Shown: in pieces, positions 537 to 24,725 of the stretch
Numbering within the stretch: position 1 is the stretch's first letter
Layout of the letters: every line of letters starts with the position of its first letter
Assembly (NCBI GenBank): GCA_015061575.1
Contig: SUWF01000001.1
Location: 1 to 64,000, forward strand
DNA length: 64,000 bases
Direction of reading: 5' to 3'
Source: Lentisphaerota bacterium
GTDB taxonomy: Bacteria; Verrucomicrobiota; Lentisphaeria; Victivallales; Victivallaceae
Notes under the pieces: model-generated
What the model was told of the DNA's origin: nothing
Seen by the model: only the letters and a program-made list of their open reading frames with translations
Databases searched by the model: none
Translations under genes and position numbers: made by a program

Positions 537-2345
537 TCAACAGTATATATCCAGCAGCAAACAGCTGTTGGGCTTTAAGGTTACGGTTTGATTTCTGCTG
601 AATTTTCTGTCATGCCAGAAGTCGCTGAGTTCAGTTGCGTTTTCCGGCAGCTTGTCCAGAGTTATCGATTTTTCTTCGGGCTGCCAATTTATCCAGAGCT
701 TGCGCCAATGTTTGCTGCTAACTTGCTGGGTGAATTTTTGCGCATATTCTGCTTGCAGAAGATCATCGGCGGTTCCGGCCCTGCCGCGCACGGCGGAGGC
801 GGCCTTGCGAACCAGCTCCAGCCCGAAATCATTGAGCTTGAACAACGCATCCGAAAAAGTCCGTTCGCCGCCGGAAATCAGGATCAGCGACAATAAAATT
901 TCCGCCTCGCTGCCGGTCATTTGTCCGGCACAGCTCCATTGGCCATGGAAATCATCAAATTCATTGGCAGCCGCATTGATATATACCTGATTGGGGCGCA
1001 GCAGATCCATAGCAGGATCATCACTGGTGTCACAGCCTCTTACCAAAGCAAAATCCGGATCGTTTCGCCAAATCCGCTCATGCAGATTCAAGCGGGCGGC
1101 AATGCTGGTACTGTTGGTTTTTATGCTGTCGAAATTAGCATGTATATCGCTGGCGCAGCGCACGATATCCAAATACTCGCTGCCGGCCGGAAAAAGATGA
1201 TTGCACCCCATCAATATTGCCTCACTGCCGACACCTTCCCGGATCGGGCGGATCAGGGAGCGGATTATTGCGTTGGCATCGGCATACGGATCGTGAAATT
1301 TCCGGGCATTGAGCGTGTGCTTCAGAAAATCCAGCTTAAAGTAATCAAACCCCATCGCCCGGTAGTGTTGGAACAATTCAAACAAATATTTTTGCACCTC
1401 CTGGCGGGTCGGATCCAGCAAAAATCCCCGCCGGCTCATACACTCAAAGGCCAGACACGGCCAATCGTTTTCGCCCCGGGCCAGATACTGCCAGTTTTTT
1501 TGCGCAAACAAGCTCTGCGGTTCGGCAATGCCCGGCGCAAACCACAAACCGGCACTGAAGTGCATTTTATTCAGCTCTTTGACCAGTTCGGGCATATTTT
1601 TGAAGCGGGAATTCGGCTCCCATTCGCCATAACAATTCATCCAGCCATCATCAATGATGATGCGCTTGATGTGCTTGGAAAGAACCGGATCCCAGGCAAT
1701 AAATTCCGCATTAGCCAGTACATCTCCGGCACTTACGCTCCAGCGGTAATAGTCCCAGCTGCTCCAGGCAGAAAAATCATCCGACTGGCGCAGCGAACGC
1801 TGCGGATAATGTTTGTTTGTCCACTCATCAAGCAGCTGCTGCAGATTGCCGGAGCGGTGGATGACGATCGTTATTTCCGGCAGGGCCGTTTTCCGGGCAA
1901 AGCGTTCCCGGAGCTCGGCCCGGAAATTGCGGATAAAACCATTTTCCCAAACTCCGCACCAGAACAACTCTCCGGCGTTGGTGGACGCAACTTCCAAAAG
2001 TATAAAATCACGGCCTTGTTTCAGCACGGTCATACCGCAGGAGGCAAACTCCCGCTGCGGCGTTGCAGCAGTCAGTATATGGCAGTTGCCCATGCTGTCG
2101 GAAATCGTCAGCATTTGTTCGCACTGCAGATCGTCAAATCCAACCTGGCAGATCCAGTTGGCAGGCAGTTCCTGCTCAGGTTGGCTTGCTGCCGATGCGC
2201 TCCAGCAGGCAGAGCCGGTGCCGGGAGTATATCGGCAATGCCAGCAGACCGTATTGTCTGGCATTGCAGCTGAGTACCAGGAGGGTTCGTGCCACTGCAG
2301 CCGTCCGGTTGGATACTGATAGCAAAAAGTTCCTGCACCGCTCAT
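537..2345 (-). CDS. GH36-like alpha-galactosidase
   Basis: 602-aa protein without an obvious signal peptide, probably cytoplasmic. The central part has the GH36/clan GH-D barrel layout: RIIIDDGWMNCYGEWEPN (about 228-246) and GLWFAPGIAEP (266-276) are typical substrate-binding segments. DYFKLDF (334-340) carries the expected nucleophile at Asp339. RCASD (396-400) fits the RxxSD-type acid/base region, with Asp400 as candidate. The N-terminal ~190 residues would be the beta-sandwich domain. Members remove terminal alpha-galactosyl (sometimes alpha-N-acetylgalactosaminyl) residues from oligosaccharides. It is the last gene of a long minus-strand run, 12 nt after the metallophosphoesterase. Family assignment is fairly firm; exact substrate is not. 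Confidence 0.75.
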   Translation of the reverse strand: MSGAGTFCYQYPTGRLQWHEPSWYSAAMPDNTVCWHCRYTPGTGSACWSASAASQPEQELPANWICQVGFDDLQCEQMLTISDSMGNCHILTAATPQREFASCGMTVLKQGRDFILLEVASTNAGELFWCGVWENGFIRNFRAELRERFARKTALPEITIVIHRSGNLQQLLDEWTNKHYPQRSLRQSDDFSAWSSWDYYRWSVSAGDVLANAEFIAWDPVLSKHIKRIIIDDGWMNCYGEWEPNSRFKNMPELVKELNKMHFSAGLWFAPGIAEPQSLFAQKNWQYLARGENDWPCLAFECMSRRGFLLDPTRQEVQKYLFELFQHYRAMGFDYFKLDFLKHTLNARKFHDPYADANAIIRSLIRPIREGVGSEAILMGCNHLFPAGSEYLDIVRCASDIHANFDSIKTNSTSIAARLNLHERIWRNDPDFALVRGCDTSDDPAMDLLRPNQVYINAAANEFDDFHGQWSCAGQMTGSEAEILLSLILISGGERTFSDALFKLNDFGLELVRKAASAVRGRAGTADDLLQAEYAQKFTQQVSSKHWRKLWINWQPEEKSITLDKLPENATELSDFWHDRKFSRNQTVTLKPNSCLLLDIYC

Positions 2346-4039: not shown

Positions 4040-4813
4040 TCAGTTATTGCGGCCATACCACAGATTTTTCTTGCCCAAATAGGTATTCTGCCAGAACTCC
4101 TGACGGCCCTCCAGCGTGTTGCCGGCTTTGACGGGGATCATTTCCACATGACCATCGGTGTAGCTTACATGTGCTCCGCCATGGCCCAAAAACACATTTT
4201 CATCCATCTTGGCCAGCACATCTAATTTGCCCCAGGCACCGAACTTGTTCAGGCGGCACGGTATCTGGTAGGAACCGGTATCGTTGGGCCAGCTGATTTG
4301 TTTGGCATCTGCAAACATGATCAAAGTTGCCGGATCTTCGACCTGAGCAATATTCTGATAAAGCCCGTTGAGCTTGGCTGGCGAAAACGCATAATTCATG
4401 CCGTAATCAAGTTTGGCATAGCAGTCGTATTGGAACGAACTGAACTGGGATTTGCTGCGGGCCGGACAATGAAATTCCTGCGGCAAAGCCCAACCGTCAG
4501 CACCGGTGGTGGCCGTTTTTTGGGTCGTCAGGATAAAGTAGGGCCATTTGGCAAAACTTTTGGAGGTGCTTTTTTGGCCATTAACGGTCAGAGTGGGTTT
4601 GAAAGATGTATCCATGGCGGGGGTGAAAAAGTCATCGTTGCTTTCCAGATAGGCTTGTTGAAGCTGGCCGAGTTTTTTCAGATTGTCGCTGCAGAGCATA
4701 CCTTTGGCTCCCTGCTGCGAAGCCGAAATCGCCGGGGCCAGCACGGTGGCGATCATGGCGGTCAAACCGATCACTACCGAAAGTTCCATCAGATTGAAAT
4801 GTTGTTTTTTCAT
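4040..4813 (-). CDS. Divergent prepilin-like (pseudopilin) protein
   Basis: 257-aa protein with a short positively charged leader (MKKQH), then FNLMELSVVIGLTAMIATVLAP, a class III (prepilin peptidase) signal with Phe at +1 and Glu at +5. The helix differs strongly from the near-invariant helix of the other six pseudopilins here. The C-terminal body ([19 protein letters not shown]..., GHGGAHVSYTDGHVE) clearly resembles that of the pseudopilin encoded at 9930-10811 and keeps an H-X8-DG motif. It lies between the TIM-barrel and metallophosphoesterase genes in one operon. Such proteins are known as pseudopilin or DUF1559/H-X9-DG types; their real role is unknown. Confidence 0.75.
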   Translation of the reverse strand: MKKQHFNLMELSVVIGLTAMIATVLAPAISASQQGAKGMLCSDNLKKLGQLQQAYLESNDDFFTPAMDTSFKPTLTVNGQKSTSKSFAKWPYFILTTQKTATTGADGWALPQEFHCPARSKSQFSSFQYDCYAKLDYGMNYAFSPAKLNGLYQNIAQVEDPATLIMFADAKQISWPNDTGSYQIPCRLNKFGAWGKLDVLAKMDENVFLGHGGAHVSYTDGHVEMIPVKAGNTLEGRQEFWQNTYLGKKNLWYGRNN

Positions 4814-4842: not shown

Positions 4843-6768
4843 TTAATTGGCGGCCGGGGTGAGTCTTAAAATTTTTGCATCATGTTCCGGAATCGTGAAT
4901 ACTGCGGAACTCTGGCCGCTTTCCATATCCAGCAGTTCCTGCGTAAAACTGTATTCCACCGGGCGGTTGCCGAAGTTGGCGACCACCAGATAGGTATCGG
5001 TGTTGACAAACGCTGTAAGCATGGTGTTGGCGGGGGCGGCTTTGATCAGCGAAGATTTTTTCACATCCCGGTAAATGTGGGTGCCGTCTTTGCTCATGGC
5101 ACTCCAGATGCCCAAAAAATGTTTGAACCAGGTAAATTCCATGTTCCAGGTTTTCTGCGCCGAATAACTGGCTACCGGGAAATGGCCCAGCACCATGGTG
5201 TAAGCGTAAACTTCCCGCGGCGAATAGTAAGTAAAACCGTGGAACATTGGCAAAAAGAAGATATTGCCTTTTAAATTGCGGTGGCGGTCGATATGGGCGG
5301 CCATGGAGGGGGTGCTTTCGCCAACATACTGTATATCGCAATAATCTTCCATATCGGCGTGGGTTTCGGCAAAAAGATACAGGAGTTTGCTGTTTTCCCG
5401 GCAGAGCGCATAAAGCCGGTTCATCATATCTTTGCTGGAGGCCCGCCCCGGAACATCGTGCGTAAAAGCATGGATGTGATCAGCTTTGGTACAGCGGGCT
5501 TCTTCGGCATTATTTACGCCGATATCCACATAAATGCCGTCGATCGGGTAATTGTCAAACATCTTTTGCACATTGCTGAAAAAGTAATTGCGCCAGACCG
5601 GTGAACCGGTACAGATCTGCCCCCATTGGATCGGTTTGGCCGGAGCAGTACTTTTGTCCGAAAATTCCCAGGTCGGGTTGTAGTCTTTATTGAGCTTGAC
5701 CCAGGCCGGCGAAACATACGCAATAAATTTTAAGTCCCGGTCGTGACAGTATTTGATAAATTTGCGGTAATCGTCTTCATCGGCCTGATTACGGGGCCGG
5801 AAAGGACTGGTGCCGTCGATATCTGCCCAGTAAGAGTGTACCTTGACCAGACCGACCCCGGCAGCTTTGGCGTCATCGAGTATCGGCAAAAAGGTATCGG
5901 CGTGACGGTATTTGGCCACATATTGTACCCAGAGCTGGCCGGGGATGGTATGACCTTTGCGTTCCATGCGTTCGCATTGCTTGAACAGCGTTCGGGCCCG
6001 TTTGAGCTCCTGCAGCGATGCCTGAGCTTCGGCAACCGAGAATTTTTCAAACTTGCGGATCCGTTCCCGCATAGCCTGAGTTGCTTCGGCAACAGGCAGG
6101 GGAATATTTTTGCTGGCAGTGATCCGGTTGGCGGGATTTTCAAAAATCACCAGTTCAGCTTTGGCAAAGGCCAGCGGAAACTGGCGGTTCTGCTGCCGCA
6201 TAAGTTTGACCAATCCTTCGGATCTGTCAGCAACGTTGATCAACTCAACTTCCACCGGATAATCGGCTTCCACGAGGTCGTCGACATCAAAAATATAATC
6301 GGTTATATCTTCTTTAAAATAAGGGTTGAACTGCTCTTTGGGCAGAAAGTTTTCGCCATAGCCTACATCCCACGACTTCATGTATTTATCAAACCACGCA
6401 CTGCCGGAGTAGCGTTGGTTGGGGCCGCCGGTCAGCTGTTTGATGTCGGGGCGGTTGACCAGCCGGGGCTGCTTGTTGGCATTAAAGCGTTCCACGAGCT
6501 TGCCGTTGACTTTGAGCTGCATGATCATAGTCCAGCCGCCGTTGTACGACTTGGAGAGAGCTATGGCTTTGACCCGCAAGCCCACCCGTTTATTGCCCCA
6601 TTTTTTATCGGTGGTTTTAAGGCGGCCGCCTTTGAAGTGCTGTTTTTCCCCGGCTTGCAGGGTCAGGCGTTTTTTTATCAGCGGATGACGCTCCAGAATT
6701 TTGATTGTTTCGGCAGTTGCTGCTCCGGTCAGGAGGATAGCCAAAAACACTAAAAGAATTTTTTTCAT
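4843..6768 (-). CDS. Secreted TIM-barrel glycoside hydrolase-like protein
   Basis: 641-aa protein with a signal peptide (KKILLVFLAILLTGAATAE). The first ~230 residues are beta-rich with a helical linker (REARKFEKF-like, ~225-265). From about 275 (GQLWVQYVAKYRHADTFLPILDDAKAAG) it looks like a (beta/alpha)8 barrel with successive strands: GLVKVHSYWADIDG, LKFIAYVSPAWV, IDGIYVDIGVNN and LYLFAETH. Acidic residues at strand ends (YVDIG, FAETH) are candidate catalytic positions, but I cannot assign a numbered GH family. The C-terminal ~80 residues form a beta-sandwich typical of amylase-like hydrolases. It sits between GH42-like and pseudopilin genes, so a role in extracellular glycan breakdown is likely. 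Confidence 0.6.
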   Translation of the reverse strand: MKKILLVFLAILLTGAATAETIKILERHPLIKKRLTLQAGEKQHFKGGRLKTTDKKWGNKRVGLRVKAIALSKSYNGGWTMIMQLKVNGKLVERFNANKQPRLVNRPDIKQLTGGPNQRYSGSAWFDKYMKSWDVGYGENFLPKEQFNPYFKEDITDYIFDVDDLVEADYPVEVELINVADRSEGLVKLMRQQNRQFPLAFAKAELVIFENPANRITASKNIPLPVAEATQAMRERIRKFEKFSVAEAQASLQELKRARTLFKQCERMERKGHTIPGQLWVQYVAKYRHADTFLPILDDAKAAGVGLVKVHSYWADIDGTSPFRPRNQADEDDYRKFIKYCHDRDLKFIAYVSPAWVKLNKDYNPTWEFSDKSTAPAKPIQWGQICTGSPVWRNYFFSNVQKMFDNYPIDGIYVDIGVNNAEEARCTKADHIHAFTHDVPGRASSKDMMNRLYALCRENSKLLYLFAETHADMEDYCDIQYVGESTPSMAAHIDRHRNLKGNIFFLPMFHGFTYYSPREVYAYTMVLGHFPVASYSAQKTWNMEFTWFKHFLGIWSAMSKDGTHIYRDVKKSSLIKAAPANTMLTAFVNTDTYLVVANFGNRPVEYSFTQELLDMESGQSSAVFTIPEHDAKILRLTPAAN

Positions 6769-6794: not shown

Positions 6795-9700
6795 TTATTC
6801 CATTAACAATATCCGGGTGCCGGGATTGGCGATTTTCAGCTCAAAAGTGCCGCCATCGGAAAGTTTTTTACCGGTAAATGCATCTTTGACGGATTTTACC
6901 GGTTGCGGCAGCGATACTTTAATGACCTGTTCCTTTTCGCAGCCGTTATGAAACATCAGCAGACGGCTGTCTGCTGCCATTACTACCGGAGCGCGGGTGT
7001 ATAAATGCACTCCGGCAAATTCAGCAATGTTGCATAACATTTCCCGGCTCAAATAGGGCACTGCAGAATATATGATATTGCAGTTATTCAGCTTCTTCAA
7101 AGCCATTACCGGCATATTACGACTGTTTCTGCCCAGTACGATAACACTTTTATCGGTGATTTCAAAGTTGGGATGGACGCATTCCGGATGTACCGGTTCG
7201 GCACTCTTCCAGCCGGAAGCATCCAATACGGTATTCTGCAGGTCTTTCAGCAACGGATGCTGCAAATTACTCAGAGTCATCTTCATAACCTCCGGCTGGT
7301 CGATCTTTTTTACCTGCATATTGCAAAGTGAAGATATCCCGTTGACATCAAAACTCTTTTCGCCGACGTAACCGGGAGCATAGAGGAAAACCAGCGTTTT
7401 GCCGTCACGTTTGAGTTTTTCGATCGCTTCCCGCTGAGCCTTGGTCACATAAAATAAATTCATGAATACATAAAGTTTGTATTCCGGTAATTCCTTATGG
7501 AGCAGATCTTCAGCAGTATAAACATCATACGGAGTTCCGAGGAACGGGAAATCCTTGAAAGCCATTTTATCAATCAAATTATAGTAAACTACTGCACTGT
7601 TGAGCAAATCTTCCCGTGCAGGGGACTGCATACTGTAAAAGAACGCCATTTCAGATGCGGTTTTATGTGTCTGACCAGAGTTGGCAAGTTTGCGGAAAAG
7701 CTCCAGCATTTTTCCGGCCGGTTCAGCGGCTTCTCTGGCACCGATCCAGCTGGATTTGCTTTCGCTGAAATTCAGATAGGAGCCCTGACTCATATCGGCA
7801 AACCATGCTCCGGCCTGACGGGTGTACATCCAGGCCAGATCCCGCTTGATCAGCGAATCAGTTTCATAAATACTGCGGTGACGCCCGAAGTTGAGCGTTC
7901 CGGCGGCAATGGTTCTTATGTCGTAGTCCGCCATATACATGCGTTTGTGCAGAGCCATGGAGCTTGTCGGCTGATAAACTACGATCCCATCTCCGGCCTG
8001 ACGCCGGTGGTAGGGCATGGCCTGCACATACATATCAATATTTTTATCCCGCAAAAGCGTTTCAAGGTCATAGTTGCTGCCATGCAGCCTTATGCCGGTT
8101 GGCTGCGGGCGGGTCAAATTGTTCAGCACCGCACCATAATGCACAAATACCAATGCTTTGTTATTGGTCTTACGCTTGATAAATTCCGCCATCGCCCGTT
8201 TGTAGTTACCCAGGAGCGAGGGGAAAAACGTCCAGTAATCCACTGCCGGTTGACTGGTTGCCGGGTTACGGAAAAATCCTCTTTCCGAATCCTGAGAACC
8301 AAGTATTTTATTGCTGATGCCGGCATTTTCAAAGCTCACTGTCGGATCGTTCCACGCCGTTTGCAGAGCCTTGACATCATTATTGTAACGCTGACGCAAA
8401 AACTCACGGAATTTTTTGATCGCACCGGGGTGATAGTCGCCCAACTGCAATTTGCTGCGGTCAGAAACCATGTTATTGCAGCGGATACCGCCGATATAGG
8501 AGTCATTTTCGGTATTGCTCCACGGCTGATACGCTATGACCCGCGATCCCCACGGTTTGCTGTTTACAAAATTAATCAACTCATCCAGAAATTCCAGCGA
8601 TTCTTTCCACAGTTTTTCTGAACCGTAAGAAATCAACGGGCGATTGTTCTGCAAAAGCTTGCTGCCATCTTCCCGCAGCATCATTTCGTTGGGATTTTCG
8701 GCTTTCCACGCTGCCGAGGGGCGCATATCTATACCGACAAGTATATAGGATTCCGGACGAACCCGCAGCAGCGAATTTGCCAGATGATCAAGCCGGGCAA
8801 ACGTTCCTGCCCAGGTGCGTTCAGGCCCGAACATATTGGGGTAAAGCTGAATATTCTGCAAGGATGTGCCGTTGAGCCGGGAGGAGAAAAACCGTTCATA
8901 ATCCAGCGTACAGCACCAATGGTTCATAAAAGGCGGATGCAGCTCGTTGCCAACCAGAAAACCTCTCCAGCCGTTTTTATCGCCAATACCTGCTGCCGGA
9001 GCACTCTCCTGCAACTCAAGTTTTTGTTCAGGCAAGACTTCGATGGTCAGGATTTCGCTTTTATTCAGCTTGACCAAATGCTGATTGTCTGCCGTAACTA
9101 CCTGTGCCTGCAACATGGTTTTGCCCGCCGGCATCCACGGCGGTAAAGTTATACTGCCGGAAAAATGTTTTTTGCTGCGGTCAAGACCGGTCAATTCGAC
9201 CAGATCGCAGCCGATTTCAAGATCGCCGAAATGCTGCCGCAGGCCGATGGATTTTTCTTTCATTTCCAAAAGCATATAGACCTTGGGCAGCGGAACTTCA
9301 TTGGGGGCGTTGAATTGGGCATCAAATTCGATTTTTACTGTATCGCCAGCCTGGGCGGTAACGTTGGCGGGAGTTACATTGCTTAATGTCACGCTTACTT
9401 TGTCCAGATACTTATCCGGCATAGTTACCGGCGGCAGCGGCTGATCCGGCCCGGAGAGCACAACTTCGTAAAGCCGTGGGGCTTTGTTGTTTGCGCCGAT
9501 AATATCCAGTTGTATCCGTTCGGCCCGGCTCAGCGGCAATACGGCTTTGCCTTTGACTCCGGCGAGTTCAGTTAGCAGTTCATATTGGCCGTTGCGCCAG
9601 ACTTTCAGTGCAAGTTTTTCAAAATTCCGTCCCTGCCATTCGATCTGATTGAATTTTACCGGGGTGCGCCATCTGGCTTTTATATAGTGTGGAGCTTTGC

Positions 9701-9908
9701 TGTCAAAAGCTTTCCAGCAGGTGTGTTTTTTGCCGTCGGCAAGGCGGTCAAAATAGTGGACTGTTTCCAACTTCCAGCTTTTCTGTTCAGCAGCAAAACT
9801 GGAGCCGGAAAGTATACAGCCCTGAGCTTTTCCCAGCAAATTTACCCCTGAAGCTGCAAGTGGTAAACACACTGTCATCAACAATACAACGACCGCCTGC
9901 CAACGCAT
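6795..9908 (-). CDS. Large secreted GH42-like beta-galactosidase
   Basis: 1037-aa protein with signal peptide (VVVLLMTVCLPLAASG). A discoidin-like module (~25-150; FDSKAPHYIKARWRTP... NQIEWQGRNF) and an Ig-like region (~165-295) precede the catalytic barrel. The barrel starts near 310 (GWRGFLVGNELHPPFMNHW) and includes ESYILVGIDMRPSAAW, VIAYQPWSNTEND and QLGDYHPGAIKKFREFLRQRY, the last a typical GH42 helix. It is followed by a GATase-like trimerisation domain (YDVYTAEDLLHKELPEYKLYVFMNLFYV, ~790-970) usual in GH42. The expected Asn-Glu catalytic dipeptide is not clean: the equivalent segment reads SNTEN, so activity or specificity may differ. Second structural gene after the regulator and pseudopilin. 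Confidence 0.65.
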   Translation of the reverse strand: MRWQAVVVLLMTVCLPLAASGVNLLGKAQGCILSGSSFAAEQKSWKLETVHYFDRLADGKKHTCWKAFDSKAPHYIKARWRTPVKFNQIEWQGRNFEKLALKVWRNGQYELLTELAGVKGKAVLPLSRAERIQLDIIGANNKAPRLYEVVLSGPDQPLPPVTMPDKYLDKVSVTLSNVTPANVTAQAGDTVKIEFDAQFNAPNEVPLPKVYMLLEMKEKSIGLRQHFGDLEIGCDLVELTGLDRSKKHFSGSITLPPWMPAGKTMLQAQVVTADNQHLVKLNKSEILTIEVLPEQKLELQESAPAAGIGDKNGWRGFLVGNELHPPFMNHWCCTLDYERFFSSRLNGTSLQNIQLYPNMFGPERTWAGTFARLDHLANSLLRVRPESYILVGIDMRPSAAWKAENPNEMMLREDGSKLLQNNRPLISYGSEKLWKESLEFLDELINFVNSKPWGSRVIAYQPWSNTENDSYIGGIRCNNMVSDRSKLQLGDYHPGAIKKFREFLRQRYNNDVKALQTAWNDPTVSFENAGISNKILGSQDSERGFFRNPATSQPAVDYWTFFPSLLGNYKRAMAEFIKRKTNNKALVFVHYGAVLNNLTRPQPTGIRLHGSNYDLETLLRDKNIDMYVQAMPYHRRQAGDGIVVYQPTSSMALHKRMYMADYDIRTIAAGTLNFGRHRSIYETDSLIKRDLAWMYTRQAGAWFADMSQGSYLNFSESKSSWIGAREAAEPAGKMLELFRKLANSGQTHKTASEMAFFYSMQSPAREDLLNSAVVYYNLIDKMAFKDFPFLGTPYDVYTAEDLLHKELPEYKLYVFMNLFYVTKAQREAIEKLKRDGKTLVFLYAPGYVGEKSFDVNGISSLCNMQVKKIDQPEVMKMTLSNLQHPLLKDLQNTVLDASGWKSAEPVHPECVHPNFEITDKSVIVLGRNSRNMPVMALKKLNNCNIIYSAVPYLSREMLCNIAEFAGVHLYTRAPVVMAADSRLLMFHNGCEKEQVIKVSLPQPVKSVKDAFTGKKLSDGGTFELKIANPGTRILLME

Positions 9909-9929: not shown

Positions 9930-10811
9930 TTACGGCTTGATGTGCCACTTGTTGTTGTCCGGGTCATCGCCGTAGGTAGCCTGCCAGAAAGCTTTGCGGG
10001 CGGCTTCGGTCACTCCGCCGGCAGCGGCAACAAATTCAGCATGACCATCTACAAAACATACATTGGTGCCGCCGTGTCCGGTCCAGACATTGCGGTCGAT
10101 GGTTTTTAGGCTGTCAGGAGTCCCCCAACCGCCCTGATAACTGATTTTAGGCTCAATGGAATACCAGCCGGTGGCATTGTCTTCCCATGAGAGATAAAGG
10201 CTGTCGGCAAAAATGATCAGACCGGAGGCATCCGGCACTTTGGATATATTCTGGTAAACATTGTTACCGAAAGCATAGTTCATGCCGTAATCCAGCTTGG
10301 TATAGCAGTCAAACTGGAACGAACTGAACTCCGAATTGCCGCGGCTGGGACAATGGAATGCTTTGTCCAAGTCAAAACTTTCCACAAAGAGTCCGGACGT
10401 CATCATGAAATAGGGCCACGTGGCAGAACCACCGGCGGTCAGCGTCTGACCGTCGATCGTCCAGGTGGGCTTGTATCCGGAAACAACGGTCGGAGCAAAG
10501 AAGCCTTTATTGTTGTCCAAATACATATTGCAGGCAAGACCGATCTGCTTGAGGTTGTTGATACATGCAGAAGTGCGTGCCCGTTCCCGGGCGGCTGACA
10601 AGGCCGGCAAAAGCATGGCTGCCAGAATGGCAATGATGGCGATCACTACGAGGAGTTCTATAAGGGTAAAGCATGCTTTACCCTGCCCATGGGCAGGCTT
10701 TTCACGATCACAGCAGACCGGTGACTTTTCGGCCAAAAGTTCAAACAGCGTAAAATTTGGGTTCTGAGCTGCCAACTTCCGGCACAACTGAGTTCGGAGC
10801 GACTTTTTCAT
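9930..10811 (-). CDS. Pseudopilin with duplicated prepilin motif in its leader
   Basis: 293-aa prepilin-like protein. The conserved helix starts at Phe48 ([17 protein letters not shown]...), so the leader is unusually long. Inside the leader a second copy, NFTLFELL, begins at Phe20. Residue -1 is Cys rather than the Gly prepilin peptidases prefer. The body has [15 protein letters not shown]-like sequence shared with the 4040-4813 product and ends with [16 protein letters not shown] (H-X8-DG). The start has AAAGGAA about 7 nt upstream. It is the first structural gene after the GntR regulator and precedes the GH42-like gene. The family is thought to be exported by type II secretion-like machinery; actual location (cell surface or periplasm) is inference. 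Confidence 0.85.
10664..10697. repeat. Two adjacent perfect palindromes inside the pseudopilin leader
   Basis: GGGTAAAGCATGCTTTACCC (10664-10683) is a perfect 20-bp palindrome. It overlaps by two bases a perfect 16-bp palindrome CCTGCCCATGGGCAGG (10682-10697). Both lie in the coding region for the unusual leader between the two FTLxELL motifs. Such density in a coding sequence suggests an inserted or mobile short element, or RNA structure near the translation start; neither is proven. Confidence 0.6.
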
Positions 10812-11964: not shown

Positions 11965-11985
11965 CTTGATTCTATATGATCCTAT
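11965..11985 (-). promoter_or_regulatory. Putative GntR operator, copy 1
   Basis: The 21 bp include TTGATTCTATATGATCCTAT (+ strand reading), identical to 13283-13303. It lies 5-25 nt downstream of the predicted transcription start and 10 nt before the regulator's ATG. It is an imperfect palindrome centred on TATA, as GntR sites usually are. Position downstream of the start suits repression by blocking polymerase. Confidence 0.7.
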
Positions 11986-11996
11986 GCAATGGTATA

Positions 11997-12025
11997 ATAA
12001 TACAATTTTTTTATCTCTTTGTCAA
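11997..12025 (-). promoter_or_regulatory. Strong sigma-70-type promoter of the GntR regulator operon
   Basis: On the minus strand TTGACA (12020-12025) and TATTAT (11997-12002) are separated by exactly 17 bp. This predicts a transcription start near 11990, directly before the operator copy at 11965-11985. Confidence 0.75.
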
Positions 12026-12060
12026 GGGTACATCACAAAAAAAACGTTATTTTTATAAAA

Positions 12061-13227
12061 TTACACCAACTTGGCACCGGGCTGGAAGTTTTCAAAGTAC
12101 TCCCGCAGCTCCGGCGGCAATTCCGGTATATCCATCGGCACGTTGCCGTTACGCATGGAATAATGCCCCTGCACGCCGACTGCTACCGAATCACGGGCCG
12201 CCGCCGGATTGGCATTCGTGGGCGTGCCCGAAGTAATAAAGTCCAAAAAGTTGCGGACGATCGCCGGATCCGAACCGCCGTGTGAACCGCTTTGCGGCTT
12301 GAGGTGATAAACAATATCCGGAGTTTTGCGCGGCCCCCGCTGAGTCCATACATGCACTTCGCAATCACCGGAATCGCCGACATTTTCCACCCGGCCTCTG
12401 GTGCCGATAAAAGTGTAATTGCGTTCAGCATCCGGTGTATAGTGGCACTGCATGTAAGAAGCTTGCGCTCCGGAATCCAGCTGCATCATGATCATATTGT
12501 GATCTTCCACGTCGATCTCCGGCGCAAAACCTTTGCAAGCCAGCGGCGGATACTGCTCATCCCGGAAAGTTGCATCGCCATACTCATCAGTTACCCGGCG
12601 TTCGCAGCGGTTGTAAACCGAAAGCATCCCCATGCCGACGACCCGGGTGGTGCGGCTGTTCATGATAAAGTGCATAACATCAATATCGTGAGCACCTTTC
12701 TGCAGCAGCAAGCCGCAAGTATTTTTCTGTTCGCTGTGCCAATCCCGGAAGTAGGCATCGCCGCCATAAGCTATAAAGTGGCGGCACCAGCCGGCCTGAA
12801 CTTCGCCGATCAAACCGGAATCCACGATTTCCTTCATTTTAAGTACTACCGGAAAATAGCGCATATTGTGCCCGATAAAGAGCCGGTTGCCGGTACGTTT
12901 GGCAGTTTTCAGCAGATTGTCGCAGCCTTCAATAGAAATAGCCAGCGGTTTTTCCAGATATACCGCTTTGCCGGCTTCCAGCGCAGCCACGCCGATTTCT
13001 TCGTGATTAAAGTCCGGCGAGAGCACAAAAACGGCAACGATTTCGGGATCAGTCAGCATTTCCCGATAGTTTGTGCTGACCGCAACCTGAGGATACTTAG
13101 CTTTGAAAGCGTCACAGCTGGCCTGACGGACATCCGCTGCAGCAGCAACTTCCCAGCCTTCGATATTTTCAAAGTAGGACATAATAAATGCCCGGTTGCC
13201 CAAGCCGATAACGCCGACTTTTCTCAT
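12061..13227 (-). CDS. Gfo/Idh/MocA family NAD(P)-dependent oxidoreductase
   Basis: 388-aa cytoplasmic enzyme. It opens with a Rossmann motif (VGVIGLGNRAFI) and has an AAAADV strand at about 30. The family signature YLEKPLA is near residue 95, and GAHDIDVMHF in the C-terminal alpha/beta domain supplies the catalytic His/Asp. Family members oxidise or reduce sugars, inositols or glycosidic substrates using NAD(P), including some that open glycosidic bonds by oxidation. It stands alone upstream of the GntR regulator on the same strand. It has its own promoter (13307-13335) with a second copy of the 21-bp site, so it is probably controlled by that regulator. The sugar substrate is unknown. Confidence 0.85.
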   Translation of the reverse strand: MRKVGVIGLGNRAFIMSYFENIEGWEVAAAADVRQASCDAFKAKYPQVAVSTNYREMLTDPEIVAVFVLSPDFNHEEIGVAALEAGKAVYLEKPLAISIEGCDNLLKTAKRTGNRLFIGHNMRYFPVVLKMKEIVDSGLIGEVQAGWCRHFIAYGGDAYFRDWHSEQKNTCGLLLQKGAHDIDVMHFIMNSRTTRVVGMGMLSVYNRCERRVTDEYGDATFRDEQYPPLACKGFAPEIDVEDHNMIMMQLDSGAQASYMQCHYTPDAERNYTFIGTRGRVENVGDSGDCEVHVWTQRGPRKTPDIVYHLKPQSGSHGGSDPAIVRNFLDFITSGTPTNANPAAARDSVAVGVQGHYSMRNGNVPMDIPELPPELREYFENFQPGAKLV

Positions 13228-13282
13228 ATTACGCTCCTTTTTTTTCCAAAAAACTACCCAAGCAGCGAGGTTTAAACCACAA

Positions 13283-13303
13283 CTTGATTCTATATGATCC
13301 TAT
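13283..13303 (-). promoter_or_regulatory. Putative GntR operator, copy 2
   Basis: All 21 bases are identical to 11965-11985, while the flanking bases differ. The site covers the predicted transcription start (about 13300) of the oxidoreductase gene. Identity of this length at two promoters in equivalent positions is good evidence for a shared regulator-binding site. Confidence 0.7.
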
Positions 13304-13306
13304 TTA

Positions 13307-13335
13307 AATATATTCTCTTTTTCTTTTTTTGCCAA
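13307..13335 (-). promoter_or_regulatory. Promoter of the Gfo/Idh/MocA oxidoreductase gene
   Basis: On the minus strand TTGGCA (13330-13335) and TATATT (13307-13312) are 17 bp apart. The predicted start, near 13300, is inside the second operator copy. Confidence 0.65.
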
Positions 13336-13645
13336 GTAAAATTCATCAATTATTGGCAAAAAAATTTTCTGAAGCAGAAAATCATGATAATTTCTCCTGA
13401 AACTCAAGTGGTCAAGTGCGGAGTCTGCGCGGTAAAAACCGCCCGTAAACAATTGGGCAAAAAACTGAAATATTTGGTTATTTGCCCGGGAATGCAAAAA
13501 ATTGAGCATTCCAGGTACTAATGGTTTACCCTTTGAAGACAAAGAATTACAATAAAATACTGAAGTTTTCGACTCAAAATGCGTTTCTGTCGAGCGGAAA
13601 AAATTAGTTTTTGTTCTGCAACAGCCTGACCATAAGCTGTTGCGG
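13336..13645. other. Intergenic region with several hairpins, no supported gene
   Basis: About 310 bp between the oxidoreductase promoter and the PocR-AraC gene. Visible inverted repeats are GGGCAAA...TTTGCCC (13455-13487), GGAATGC...GCATTCC (13489-13512) and GCAACAGC-N10-GCTGTTGC (13618-13643). The last lies just after the AraC stop codon and could act as a weak terminator, but it lacks an adjacent T tract on the minus strand. The 119-aa ORF at 13300-13659 has no domain and overlaps regulatory sequence, so I do not call it. Confidence 0.45.
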
Positions 13646-14431
13646 TCAATTTTTTGCATGCCGGTATTGGGCTGGAGTTGAGTTCAGGTATTTTTTGAAC
13701 GCTGTTGTAAAATGTTGTTGACTGGCAAATCCGCAGAATAAGGCGATTTCGCCAATCGATATATTGGTCTGTTTAAGCATGTCGCAGGCAATTGATAAAC
13801 GCAATTTCAGCAAATACCCTGTAAAATCGATTCCGCAACTGCTTTTGAAGAGATGGGAAAATCTGGACGGACTCAACGCCGCAGCTTCGGCAACTGTTTT
13901 GAGCGTTATATGCTTGGAAAAATTTGCCGCAACAAAATTCAAGGCTTTTACTATCCGGTTATCCATATTGGTATATTCCGGATAACGGTTGTAAAACCTT
14001 TCCAGTAAATCAGCCAGCAAAAGATTTACCAACTCCGGCAAAGTATTTTTCAGATCGCTCCGCCACGGAGTCAGCAAAGGCTCATCCTTGTTTGCCATGC
14101 TGAATGGGCCGCATAGCACACAGCCTAAAATCCGCCCGGTACGGCAGATCGGGATCACCAGTTCGCAGGCTCCGGCATGACATTGATGCAGAAACGGCTT
14201 ATCGCCGTTGTTCCGCAAATGGCGGATGATCAAATCTGTATCGTTGCGTTGACATGATTTCAAACCGCATTGCCGTTTGACTGCATCGCAATAGGGGTGA
14301 TCGTGCATGTAACAATTTTTCAGCCGCCGTTCGGTCAGACAAAATTCCGTGCGCTTCCAGACACAGCAGCTGCCGATGAGCGAACCAATCAGCTGCAAAC
14401 GCTGGTCTATTGTCTGCATCAAATCTTCCAT
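13646..14431 (-). CDS. AraC-family regulator with PocR sensory domain
   Basis: The ORF track extends to 14506, but its first 25 residues are implausible leader sequence. I start at the ATG at 14431 (MEDLMQTIDQ...); 14419 is also possible because GGAAG lies 6 nt before it. Residues ~1-155 are a PocR-type ligand-binding domain with Cys/His-rich motifs (NDTDLIIRHL, LHQCHAGACELVIPICRTGRILGCVLCGPF). Residues ~165-260 hold two AraC helix-turn-helix motifs (ITLKTVAEAAALSPSRFSHLFKSSCG and ISIGEIALFCGFASQQHFTTAFKKYL). It is divergent from the pseudopilin/GH2-like block at 14585, which it probably activates. PocR domains are known to bind small metabolites such as propanediol; the ligand here is unknown. 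Confidence 0.85.
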   Translation of the reverse strand: MEDLMQTIDQRLQLIGSLIGSCCVWKRTEFCLTERRLKNCYMHDHPYCDAVKRQCGLKSCQRNDTDLIIRHLRNNGDKPFLHQCHAGACELVIPICRTGRILGCVLCGPFSMANKDEPLLTPWRSDLKNTLPELVNLLLADLLERFYNRYPEYTNMDNRIVKALNFVAANFSKHITLKTVAEAAALSPSRFSHLFKSSCGIDFTGYLLKLRLSIACDMLKQTNISIGEIALFCGFASQQHFTTAFKKYLNSTPAQYRHAKN

Positions 14432-14519
14432 TTTTTCTACTTTTATATCAATTTTTATCAATGTATAGCTTAAAGTTATAAAAATATAGCATAAATTGTG
14501 TAGCAAATCAAATTATTTT

Positions 14520-14584: not shown

Positions 14585-15364
14585 ATGAAAAATTCAACAA
14601 CTTATTGTCCGGCAAAGAACTGCAAACTCTTTACCCTGATCGAACTTTTGGTCGTAATTGCTATTATTGCCATTTTAGCGGCAATGCTTTTGCCCGCACT
14701 TTCGGCAGCCCGGGAGCGGGCGCGGGCGGCAACTTGCACCGCCAACCTCAAACAGCTGGGGTTGAATGCTCAAATGTATACCGATCAGAGTAACAATATT
14801 CTGCCGGGGATCTATTATCGCGCCGGGACTCAGCTGGTGGAATGGAGTGTGGTGCTGTTTGGCGGAACTCCGACTAATTTTGCAAAAACCAATTCTTCGC
14901 AGTTAAAGATGTTCACCTGTCCGTCGCTTACAGATAAACTTGAGGAAGATCTTGATTACACCTGGCATACTTACGGTATGCTGGTAACTCAGGGTACTAT
15001 TCCTTCGGAGTGTTATGTGCCTTCGCCGGTAGCTGCCAAACTTGGCGGCGTAAATCTGGGCAGGATCAATGATCCCTCAAGCTACATACTTTACGCAGAC
15101 TCGGTAGTGCCGGGAACCAGCAAAGGCGCCTGCCGGCTGGTTTTGGGCGAAAAAGACCCCAAAACCAGCGATACCGAACGCACCGGGCACTTCTATACCT
15201 TGCACGGCAATGTGGGCAATATTTGTTTTGCCGATGGTTCGGTACGCTCCAACCAGGCCAGCGGCTTGAAAAAACTTGCTGAAATCATGTTTGATAACTC
15301 TGACAACGAGCCCGATCCGGTATATTACATCGACAGCAGCAATACCAAAAAACAAGTTGATTGA
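14585..15364 (+). CDS. Prepilin-like (pseudopilin, H-X9-DG type) protein
   Basis: 259-aa protein with a strong ribosome binding site (AAAGGAG, 8 nt upstream). A 15-residue leader ends in Leu, followed by [16 protein letters not shown] from Phe16 and [19 protein letters not shown], the conserved helix and first cysteine of the family. Glu at +5 is kept. The C-terminal body is globular and ends with a textbook H-X9-DG motif ([13 protein letters not shown]). It starts the plus-strand block divergent from the PocR-AraC gene and is followed after 14 nt by a 1066-aa secreted protein. These short pseudopilins probably act in export or surface display of the co-encoded proteins; this is inference. 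Confidence 0.85.
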
Positions 15365-18300: not shown

Positions 18301-18579
18301 ATCATGACCAGATTGCCGGAGATCATGCGTCCATTCAAGGAACAGTTCGGCAACTTCAGTCAGAAGCATTTTTCCGGCAAACGCAATGGCCGGATGGTCT
18401 GCCGCACTCAGACATTCATATTGGATATATTCTGCTATGTAACGCCGGTTCCGCCGTACCCGGTTGAAGAACTCTTTGCCATCCGGAAAAATATGCGCAT
18501 TGATAATTGGCGACGCATAGCTGATTACCGGGCATTTCTGGAATACAACAGCGATATTTATTACGAAAAATTGTGGTGA
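15379..18579 (+). CDS. Large secreted protein with GH2-type sugar-binding domain
   Basis: 1066-aa protein with a signal peptide (KKFLLLALCLCCLPVFSG). Residues ~40-180 match the jelly-roll sugar-binding domain seen at the start of GH2 enzymes (NNWKFCKGDNLAYAQANFDDSQWQ, FYWYRVKFEL, GDQVFLNGVKCGEYGF, TNVLAVRVKNG). The remainder is not GH2-like. A long middle beta region (~210-560) is followed by a helical region (~640-1000, e.g. WEALRIYLVWSYAYRCSSFDWLAKGLPELEKSY) that may be an (alpha/alpha)6 toroid as in several lyase and hydrolase families. I cannot name a family. The stop overlaps the first possible start codon of the next gene, which indicates translational coupling. Confidence 0.6.
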   Translation: MKKFLLLALCLCCLPVFSGNTTLPVRESDFNNTIFSGKTLKVFENNWKFCKGDNLAYAQANFDDSQWQNIKINTPLDKKNQSKFYWYRVKFELANAPEKGFYELDMGYISAGDQVFLNGVKCGEYGFSQVVRQSSEHHRRYRFDNINILKKGTNVLAVRVKNGHKSGMYEGIPNLRKLDDRQIFGKLNNRSGGRGAIHRHITSIDAINEFYPEDRLFIAPQLTLCGSVEKLAGVFDIMIRQENKTLFKQTRNLVLEKGQWLLPAACEVKNPGVGVYQIKCTFSVAGKTIWQQQNNFKVIEKTPLAIAVEPTLAQLPAADFPVKVGEFSYGNLGLRDVDKKYTLFDNYDTPDARSGVANVYGINKKYPGMVLLHSHIKHTPSVKSADFIDQIGWKYDGLTNGWSAGWIRPAASNKVSNIKTLETSWTAKKIRFEYPRETFLDLTISQLSPALQISGNTNELICFENFREIGSPRMILSEKSGQLVDGGKLITAFEKNYLVVSFRNAPGWNEFDIPYLMVFEKRPRQVELLANGVKVVFAPGKSGIVQIMPLYGVKLQAQDKNSADLLQQARFWSQALLAMPEKVTRTVRIDYANNNMLVRDSFARKIIKDDWDTPPLQLSPVPPSLMLAGSSGLKTAISHPVTDCNYAGLSGPFYAVKNSDSYTFAILNAVNLVTEVRKNRNLKNTPEVQAVKRDLLNLVRRKIIPEISTHPWQRLVANKKGKAWNPGGLEADFTNLLLTMDFLPENVKKRIIKEVTQEFPLFLDPELKALEKKRGKKSLIKVNTTVYNPLSNKYLNTSTRHVFDNGIDGPCWEALRIYLVWSYAYRCSSFDWLAKGLPELEKSYNMIVNSHDWAYSLCWDSFAGCRIGNGLQESSIFHAGFAAYARLMHQIGNTAERDRAVYYSLIQLVGMGSSVSPETIKFARNNRPVLPEHQLAGEVDWLEASYPDRYCEINERGGFFSWIIYPATPYYDSIIMTRLPEIMRPFKEQFGNFSQKHFSGKRNGRMVCRTQTFILDIFCYVTPVPPYPVEELFAIRKNMRIDNWRRIADYRAFLEYNSDIYYEKLW

Positions 18580-18584
18580 AAAAT

Positions 18585-20609
18585 ATGCAGTATGATACCG
18601 ATGTATTGATCATAGGTGCCGGACCCGCCGGATTGGGTGCCGCCATCATGAGTGCCCGCTCGGGCATGAAAACCATGGTTGCCGAAGCCTACGGCGTCCC
18701 CGGCGGCATGGCGGTCATTGCCGAAGTCCAGCCTTTTATGATCAGCAGTCACAACGGCAAAGATCTGGACTATCCGGTTTATCAGGAGTGGAAAAATGCC
18801 ATGAATAAATATCTTTCAGCACCCGCTCTTGAGTTGCGTAATTGCGACAAAGGTTATGCCCCCCGTAATATCAACAAGGAAATCGCCGCATTGGCTGCGG
18901 AAGATCTTTTGCTGGAATCCGGAGTCAAAGTGCTTTATCATCACCGTCTTGTGGATGTGGAAGTTGAAAAACACAATATAAAATCAGTAACTTTGCACTC
19001 CAAAAGCGGCATGAAAAAAGTCACTGCCCGCATTTACATAGATTGTACCGGCGACGGCGATCTGGCGGCACTGGCCGGGTGCAAGTTTGATATGGGCGAC
19101 GAAAACGGCAACTGCCAGCCGATGACGCTTTGTTTTAAGCTGGGCAATGTGAATATACCCCATGTCAATAAGGATGAAGCATTGAATTTGATCGACCCGG
19201 AATGGCGGCAAAAGCTCAATGAACAGTACAATGAGGCAGTCAAAGCCGGAAAACTCCATTGCGACCGGGAAGATGTGCTGCTTTTTCCATTTAAAATACA
19301 AAGCGGCAATATCATCCACTTCAACACCACCCGGGTCGTTAAGCACTCCGGAATCAACGGCAAAGAACTTTCGGAAGCTGAAATCGAAGCCCGACGGCAG
19401 ATGCGCGAACTATTTTTCTGGCTGCGCAGGGAAGTCAAAGGCTTTGAAAATGCTGAAATCATTTCTATGGGCGTGCAGATCGGCGTGCGGGAAAGCCGCC
19501 GTATCCACGGGGTGTTTACGCTGAAAAAAGAACATTTTGACCAAACGGCCAAATTCCCCGATGCCATTGCCCGCAGCAATTATCACATCGATATCCATTC
19601 GCCCAACGGCAGCGGCACCTATCGCCAGAAGATCGCCGCCGGAGAGTATTACGAAATACCCTACCGGTGTATTGTGCCGACTGATTGCGATAATCTTTTG
19701 ATCGGCGGCCGTCCCATATCAGCAGATATGGCTATGCACAGCAGTTTGCGTATTATGCCCACGGCTGTATCCATCGGGCAAGCTGCCGGCTGCGCCGCCG
19801 CTATGGCGGTCAACGAAAAATGCGCCCCCCGCCAACTCAACGGTGTATCGGTTCGTCAGAAACTCAAACAACTGGGGGCTTTGCTGACGCTGGTTCTGGC
19901 ATTTACCGGGTTCAATCTTTTGGCCGCTGCCGGCAATGGTGATTTGAGCAAACACTCCGGCAGAGTTTTTATAACCCGCCACGGACAGCGGGCAGCTATT
20001 CAGGCTCCGGATTTTGATCCGCCGCTGACTGCAGACGGCCGGAAGCAGGCCGAACTGGTTGCCGGAGAGCTGGCCAAACGCAATTTCAGCGGCAAGATCT
20101 ATGCTTCGCCCTACCGCCGCACGCTGGAAACCGCATCGATCATTGCCCGGAAACTCAATGCTCCGCTTTATGTATCGCCGCTGATTCAGGAATATATCAA
20201 ACACCAGGGCAAAGCGCGTACCCTGGCCCGGCCGCTGAGCGCACTTAAAGCAGAATTCCCGCAGCTCCGCACGGTCAGCATGGCAGATGACTGGCTGCTG
20301 CAAGGCCCGGAATCCCCGCAGACAGTCGTTGCCCGGATCGTAAAACAGCTGCAGATCCTGCCGGCCAAAAAAACTGCCGAAGACTGGCTTTTTGTTACGC
20401 ACGGAGCAGTGATCAAAGGTTTTCAGCTTTATTGCATCGGCTACCGGGGCACGGTCTGGCCGGAAATGCCGATGAACTGGAACTGCTGTCTTTCGGAATA
20501 CCAATTTATTGCCGGCGGCAAATTGCAGCTGATAGAACTTTTTGATGTATCATTTCTGCCGGAAGAACTGGTGACTTCCAACGAACGCCGTAAAAAGACT
20601 GTCCAATAA
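18585..20609 (+). CDS. FAD-dependent oxidoreductase fused to histidine phosphatase
   Basis: The track starts at a GTG (18573); I prefer the ATG at 18585 (MQYDTDVLIIGAGPAGLG). Counting from 18573, residues 10-430 form an FAD_oxidored-type flavoprotein: VLIIGAGPAG dinucleotide motif, YIDCTGDGDLAALAGC, GVQIGVRESRRIHG, and GQAAGCAAAMAVN near the end. Residues ~434-453 (GALLTLVLAFTGFNLLAAAG) look like a signal-peptide hydrophobic core. Residues ~464-660 are a phosphoglycerate-mutase-like histidine phosphatase (FITRHGQRAA, ASPYRRTLETASIIA, FVTHGAVIKGFQ). Fusing a cytoplasmic flavoenzyme to an apparently exported phosphatase is odd and suggests loss of a stop and start between two former genes. The phosphatase C-terminus abuts a phage remnant. 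Confidence 0.75.
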   Translation: MQYDTDVLIIGAGPAGLGAAIMSARSGMKTMVAEAYGVPGGMAVIAEVQPFMISSHNGKDLDYPVYQEWKNAMNKYLSAPALELRNCDKGYAPRNINKEIAALAAEDLLLESGVKVLYHHRLVDVEVEKHNIKSVTLHSKSGMKKVTARIYIDCTGDGDLAALAGCKFDMGDENGNCQPMTLCFKLGNVNIPHVNKDEALNLIDPEWRQKLNEQYNEAVKAGKLHCDREDVLLFPFKIQSGNIIHFNTTRVVKHSGINGKELSEAEIEARRQMRELFFWLRREVKGFENAEIISMGVQIGVRESRRIHGVFTLKKEHFDQTAKFPDAIARSNYHIDIHSPNGSGTYRQKIAAGEYYEIPYRCIVPTDCDNLLIGGRPISADMAMHSSLRIMPTAVSIGQAAGCAAAMAVNEKCAPRQLNGVSVRQKLKQLGALLTLVLAFTGFNLLAAAGNGDLSKHSGRVFITRHGQRAAIQAPDFDPPLTADGRKQAELVAGELAKRNFSGKIYASPYRRTLETASIIARKLNAPLYVSPLIQEYIKHQGKARTLARPLSALKAEFPQLRTVSMADDWLLQGPESPQTVVARIVKQLQILPAKKTAEDWLFVTHGAVIKGFQLYCIGYRGTVWPEMPMNWNCCLSEYQFIAGGKLQLIELFDVSFLPEELVTSNERRKKTVQ

Positions 20610-23981: not shown

Positions 23982-24725
23982 ATGAAAAAGAGTGTATGGG
24001 AGCGCAAAGTTTCTGCTCCGGTGCGGAGTTTTACCCTCATTGAACTTCTGGTGGTGATCGCTATCATTGCTATTTTGGCTGCGATGCTGCTGCCAGCGCT
24101 TTCCGCCGCCCGGGAACGGGCAAGAGTCGCCAGCTGTGTAGCTAAACTTAAAGATATTGGTACAGCTATACACATGTACACCGGCAATTACAAGGACAAT
24201 GTACCCGCCGAACAGCATAATAATTGTGTTGTTGGATGTGTCAATTACTGTAACAACCGTTATGCAACAGGAGCATTTTCCATGCCGGCATTGCTGATTC
24301 AAGCTGGTTGTATAGGCGAAACTTTTGTTGGAGTCGGCGAAGCCAATGTTACAGCTCAGCGGGATCGTTTTTTCCGCTGCCCCAGTGATTCAACAGTAGC
24401 TACCAGCAACTATCGCAATATGAGTTATTGGTACTTTGTGTGCAGTTCTGCCGGAGCTCAACAACATCCTTCGTATGGCGACTGGGGTGTTGATGAGGTC
24501 CCACGAACCGTAGTAGGACGGGATAATCCGGATAATGTTATCTTGCTCGATCAATTCAAAACATCTGCTACTGCCATTGGCGGACATCACCCGAACACAA
24601 TCAATAACTTGCGGTTAGGCGGCAATGTGGCTTCTTCGCCATATAAAGAATCTGATTTTTATGATGCAGCCGCTGGTGACAGATATTCGGCAATCTTCAA
24701 ATATCTTGAAAACCGTACCAAGTAA
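23982..24725 (+). CDS. Prepilin-like (pseudopilin) protein
   Basis: 247-aa protein. A 16-residue leader with several basic residues ends in Ser, then [16 protein letters not shown] from Phe17 and [19 protein letters not shown]. The leader is preceded by AGAAAGG about 9 nt upstream. The C-terminal H-X-DG motif is degenerate ([15 protein letters not shown]; Gly replaces Asp). Six nucleotides after its stop the first DUF4838 gene starts, so the pseudopilin heads a six-gene operon. Its membrane-anchored helix should be processed by a prepilin peptidase encoded elsewhere. Confidence 0.85.

Follow-up and report, generated by a model that had tools for sequence, protein, structure and literature searches.

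A 10-bp direct repeat as the predicted operator of a GntR-LacI chimeric regulator in Lentisphaeria

The window, the whole 64-kb stretch of DNA analysed here, encodes a GntR-type regulator within a run of genes on one strand (Table 1). Residues 9-69 of the regulator form the N-terminal winged helix-turn-helix that characterizes the GntR superfamily (PF00392, 2.5e-15, 56.3 bits against a cut-off of 27), and residues 199-331 form a C-terminal LacI/GalR-type sensor domain, as in the AraR subfamily (Peripla_BP_3, PF13377, 1.8e-11, 44.8 bits against a cut-off of 26.5). CcpA and AraR chains match the regulator across the sensor region. The run downstream of gntR also holds a second prepilin-like protein and a calcineurin-like phosphoesterase, both between the GHL6/DUF6259 gene and the alpha-galactosidase-like gene, and the latter presumably belongs to the operon as well. 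Together these genes resemble an operon for glycoside use that carries its own local repressor, and the substrate may, at best, be put down as an alpha-galactoside-like sugar. No ara genes were recognised among the neighbours examined. Directly upstream of the Gfo/Idh/MocA gene (gfo), in the same direction, lies a gene for an AraC-type regulator with a PocR sensory domain (13646-14506). Several prepilin/DUF1559-like genes are found in or beside glycoside-hydrolase runs of the window (4040-4813, 9930-10811, 14585-15364 and 23982-24725). Farther along, a single open frame (18573-20609) reads by eye as a FAD-dependent oxidoreductase joined to a histidine-phosphatase-like (RHG) domain, and appears to be either a fusion or the product of a lost stop.

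Table 1. Genes, predicted promoters and putative operator copies at the gntR locus (positions in the window)
Feature	Coordinates	Strand	Remarks
Alpha-galactosidase-like protein	537..2345	-	GH36/GH31 barrel; far end of the same-strand run
Putative glycoside hydrolase	4843..6768	-	GHL6/DUF6259
1037-aa secreted-looking protein	6795..9908	-	No recognised family; same gene run
Prepilin-like/DUF1559 protein	9930..10811	-	Downstream of gntR, same direction
Regulator gntR, 358 aa	10878..11954	-	GntR winged helix and LacI/GalR-type sensor
Putative operator copy 1 (gntR promoter)	11965..11985	-	Reads ATAGGATCAT-ATAGAATCAA-G, two tandem 10-bp direct-repeat units
Predicted sigma-70-type promoter, gntR and downstream operon	11997..12025	-	TTGACA-17-TATTAT, 11/12, consensus match only
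Gfo/Idh/MocA oxidoreductase, 388 aa	12061..13227	-	PF01408, 6.4e-23; proposed second target
Putative operator copy 2 (gfo promoter)	13283..13303	-	Same 21 bp, directly 3' of the -10
Predicted sigma-70-type promoter, gfo	13307..13335	-	TTGGCA-17-TATATT, 10/12, consensus match only

The 21-mer CTTGATTCTATATGATCCTAT occurs upstream of both gntR and gfo, in two exact copies spaced 1318 bp apart. When up to three mismatches are allowed, the window still holds two matches, against none in 100 dinucleotide shuffles. The flanks of the two copies diverge outside the shared 21 bp, so the pair is not a recent segmental duplication. The initial annotation had reported the identical sites and a small regulon, and had named a genome scan as one check, with many copies outside promoters as the outcome that would speak against it. 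The scan, at up to three mismatches, returned the same two copies, both at promoters, and no others (2,855,639 bases, 82 contigs, 94% complete), which supports the small regulon. Among the 77 other genomes of the family, a single 3-mismatch match to the operator was found (in G047). A scan of the genome with TAGNATCANNTAGNATCA at 0-1 mismatches gave the two known sites and no further regulon members, and the 114 matches at 2-3 mismatches are not far above the 93 obtained with a reversed control. Relaxed operator sites in a second genome (G003, described below) are likewise no more numerous than in the control. A weak match as an extra regulon site, C45:7155 (TAGAATCATATAACATAA), was set aside since its promoter and gene arrangement were unconvincing. 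Because the 94%-complete genome has no other sites, the regulon probably consists of these two promoters only. The predicted operators lie at the regulator's own promoter and at that of an adjacent catabolic gene, gntR and gfo, and nowhere else, as in an autoregulated local sugar-operon repressor.

Each copy lies at or just after the predicted start of a well-spaced -35/-10 pair, one serving gntR and its downstream operon and the other gfo; here the promoter pattern scan and the gene layout agree with the earlier description. Of twenty promoter-like matches listed for 11.4 kb, these two promoters come first; a third match, at 8332, likewise scores 10/12, and all of these calls are consensus matches rather than mapped start sites. 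Copy 1 spans about +5 to +25 relative to the predicted start, with its 3' end touching the Shine-Dalgarno-like AAGGCAGG, and copy 2 is about 56 bases from the gfo start codon. The distance from TTGACA-17-TATTAT to the first repeat unit is 11 bp, a layout also seen at half of the 42 repeat sites described below.

Read along transcription, the site is ATAGGATCAT ATAGAATCAA G, and its two 10-bp units agree at 8/9 adjacent positions, a level reached by 0.045% of composition-matched shuffles. The initial annotation had instead centred the site on TATA, with GATTCTA/TATGATC half-sites. That palindrome has 5/7 complementary pairs, a level found somewhere in 11% of composition-matched shuffles. Judged by its base sequence, the site takes the form of a 10-bp tandem direct repeat and not of a TATA-centred palindrome; the palindrome is rejected on account of the comparisons with orthologs and with the wider family that follow.

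The closest orthologous regulators are encoded in two Lentisphaeria MAGs, G264 from horse faeces (JAKSPB010000010.1, 54%) and G003 (CAIPAT010000082.1, 45-46%), and most of the winged helix is common to them and the window regulator. The site in G003, GTAGTATCATTTAGAATTAAT, comes after the -10 of gntR. In G264 the site, ATAGTATCAAATGGAATTAAG, is upstream of the prepilin/hydrolase operon adjoining gntR, and at gntR itself no site could be recognised. Across the four aligned sites (two from the window and one from each ortholog) TAG-ATCA--T-GAAT-AA is invariant. The direct repeat is kept at 7/10 and 6/10 positions in the orthologous sites, and the palindrome is down to 3/7 in both. In the G264 locus the main repeat pair is accompanied by an extra TAGTATCA unit (L146, 4164-4171), 34 bp downstream of where the pair begins. 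The pairing of prepilin-like and glycoside-hydrolase genes also adjoins the regulators in G003 and G264.

The repeat is not confined to these close relatives. For 65 homologous chimera genes of the same GTDB family, the 250 bp upstream of each gene was compared with itself at lags of 5-30, over nine columns. At lag 10, at least 8/9 columns match in 20 of the 65 promoters, against 1.3 expected from dinucleotide shuffles (100 shuffles, never more than 6), and an exact 9/9 match is found in eight, against 0.09 expected. The other lags give 0-9 promoters each, lag 9 being the next highest with nine. By the same lag-10 measure, the controls come to 2/21 among LacI-helix genes and 6/81 among other genes. 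Palindromes of 18 bp with at least 8/9 pairs show the opposite trend, being present in 24% of LacI promoters vs 5% of GntR-chimera promoters, so the method is able to detect palindromes where they are present. In a further 55 promoters, drawn from the same order and class, the repeat is present in 22 at lag 10, compared with 0-5 at each other lag. The promoters in both sets (120 in total) are mutually related, and the repeat counts are not independent events. Some promoters carry more than one clear copy of the unit, such as L148 with three of TCTGATAGTA, L163 with two of ATAGTATCGA, L013 with three units and L023 with about four. Roughly two in three homolog promoters have no clear lag-10 repeat, suggesting that not all of the chimeras autoregulate, or that not all use the repeat design. 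Among held-out promoters without a strong repeat, lag 10 does no better than lag 6.

Alignment of the units from 42 repeat sites gives a consensus near NATAGNATCA, with A at 0.97 in position 7, and the unit shared across the family is near ATAGNATCA, pointing downstream from the -10. A unit model built from 41 sites, with the window, G003 and G264 left out, gives the two window operators the two highest scores, at 18.35 bits, with the next match at 13.5 (64-kb window, both strands, about 128,000 positions). For G264, too, the highest score in the 15 kb falls on the aligned site (16.4 bits, next 10.4); the site of G003 is missing from the top matches of its contig, though it can be aligned directly with the window sites. 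The repeats are polar with respect to transcription. A promoter scoring at least 9/12, with its -10 lying 0-14 bp before the first unit, is found in the reading direction of the unit at 21 of the 42 sites, and in the opposite sense at three, vs 2.7 at random positions (maximum 6). In other homologs the distance from the repeat to the start codon varies from 21 to more than 100 bases, and the association with the -10 persists.

Taken at the level of sequence, the 21 bp would be the operator of the adjacent GntR-LacI chimera, which is predicted to act as a local, sugar-released autorepressor of two promoters (probability about 0.8). The operator would consist of two head-to-tail 10-bp units (ATAGNATCA along transcription), one helical turn apart and directly 3' of the -10. 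Without ligand, we infer, the regulator would occupy both copies, sterically blocking RNA polymerase at its own promoter, which would serve gntR, the prepilin and the glycoside-hydrolase genes, and likewise at the gfo promoter. A sugar made by the hydrolases, probably derived from a galactoside or another glycoside, would bind the LacI-type domain and release the regulator. Looping between the two operators could also take place. There is perhaps an even chance that the GntR-LacI chimeras, which are expanded in Lentisphaeria, share a polar operator code, with two to four head-to-tail 10-bp units (about ATAGNATCA) that start near the transcription start and point downstream. The sensor-linked winged helices would then line up side by side along a single face of the DNA rather than as a two-fold symmetric dimer.

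Other readings of the site are less probable. A classical GntR palindrome, with a dimer on the GATTCTA/TATGATC half-sites around the TATA centre, would be typical of GntR-family sites and of the Bacillus subtilis AraR sites (PMC4494728, PMC4218819), and five of the seven pairs in the window copy are indeed complementary. It is unlikely, however, since only 3/7 pairs are left in each orthologous site and the homolog promoters have no excess of palindromes, although LacI promoters do under the same test; they are strongly enriched in lag-10 direct repeats instead. Somewhat less likely again is that both sites are bound by another regulator, such as a LacI paralogue or the AraC/PocR-type protein encoded beside gfo. 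AraC-family regulators often bind direct repeats. The same kind of repeat, however, tracks the promoters of GntR-LacI chimeras in many genomes, and the orthologous sites accompany the gntR gene neighbourhood in G003 and G264, where no AraC-type gene was recognised by eye among the listed ORFs. A site 3' of the -10 also suits a repressor rather than an AraC-type activator. The abutment of copy 1 on the Shine-Dalgarno sequence would fit a short leader element acting in the RNA near the ribosome-binding site, but this is very improbable, given that the same 21 bp lie about 56 bases from the start codon at gfo, that the start-codon distance varies among homologs while the link to the -10 is preserved, and that a direct repeat can form no stem.

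The predicted autorepressor has the same two domains, in the same order, as AraR of B. subtilis, which joins a GntR winged helix to a LacI/GalR-type sensor and represses sugar operons at its own and other promoters (PMC4494728, PMC4218819). The AraR boxes are 16-bp palindromes, At(T/A)tGTaCGTAcaa(A/T)T (PMC4218819), whereas the window site, a 10-bp direct repeat, shows no AraR consensus, and the PDB match (3tb6, E 5e-5) is weak and covers only part of the sensor domain. NanR of Escherichia coli binds (GGTATA)3 downstream of the polymerase site and blocks transcription, with three dimers loaded via a 32-residue N-terminal extension (PMC8012715). It resembles the window system in having a GntR winged helix and short direct repeats downstream of the polymerase site, the binding being predicted here. 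The sensor domain of NanR is of the FadR type, however, its repeat unit is shorter than that of the window site, and the window regulator lacks the extension, its helix domain beginning at residue 9. Direct-repeat operators also occur elsewhere in the GntR superfamily, among the MocR-type regulators (GabR, TauR, PdxR), FarR and NagQ (PMC4494728, PMC5320631). These have aminotransferase-like (MocR) or HutC-type sensors and other units and spacings; the window site shows head-to-tail units in its sequence, which the GntR protein would bind. The protein therefore looks AraR-like by its domains, while the putative operator resembles a direct-repeat GntR site.

A two-target autorepressor is in itself ordinary, and it is the operator design that is unusual. 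GntR-LacI chimeras were previously known from the palindromic AraR boxes, and here a large group of such chimeras appears to rely on polar, one-turn direct repeats abutting the -10. With a polar 10-bp direct repeat in place of the palindrome, what was routine becomes a modest finding at the level of the family. If true, the motif could be read straight from the promoters, and regulons in Lentisphaeria could be reconstructed. The polarity also raises the question of how a symmetric LacI-type dimer sets two winged helices head to tail. A literature search found no description of GntR-LacI regulators or GntR regulons in Lentisphaeria; many subscription papers fell outside the search, so the novelty is provisional.

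The gfo promoter has a further feature, a perfect 12-bp inverted repeat (TTTTTTTGCCAA ... TTGGCAAAAAAA, 13324-13364) with arms 17 bp apart, which overlaps the -35 and could be a second regulatory site.
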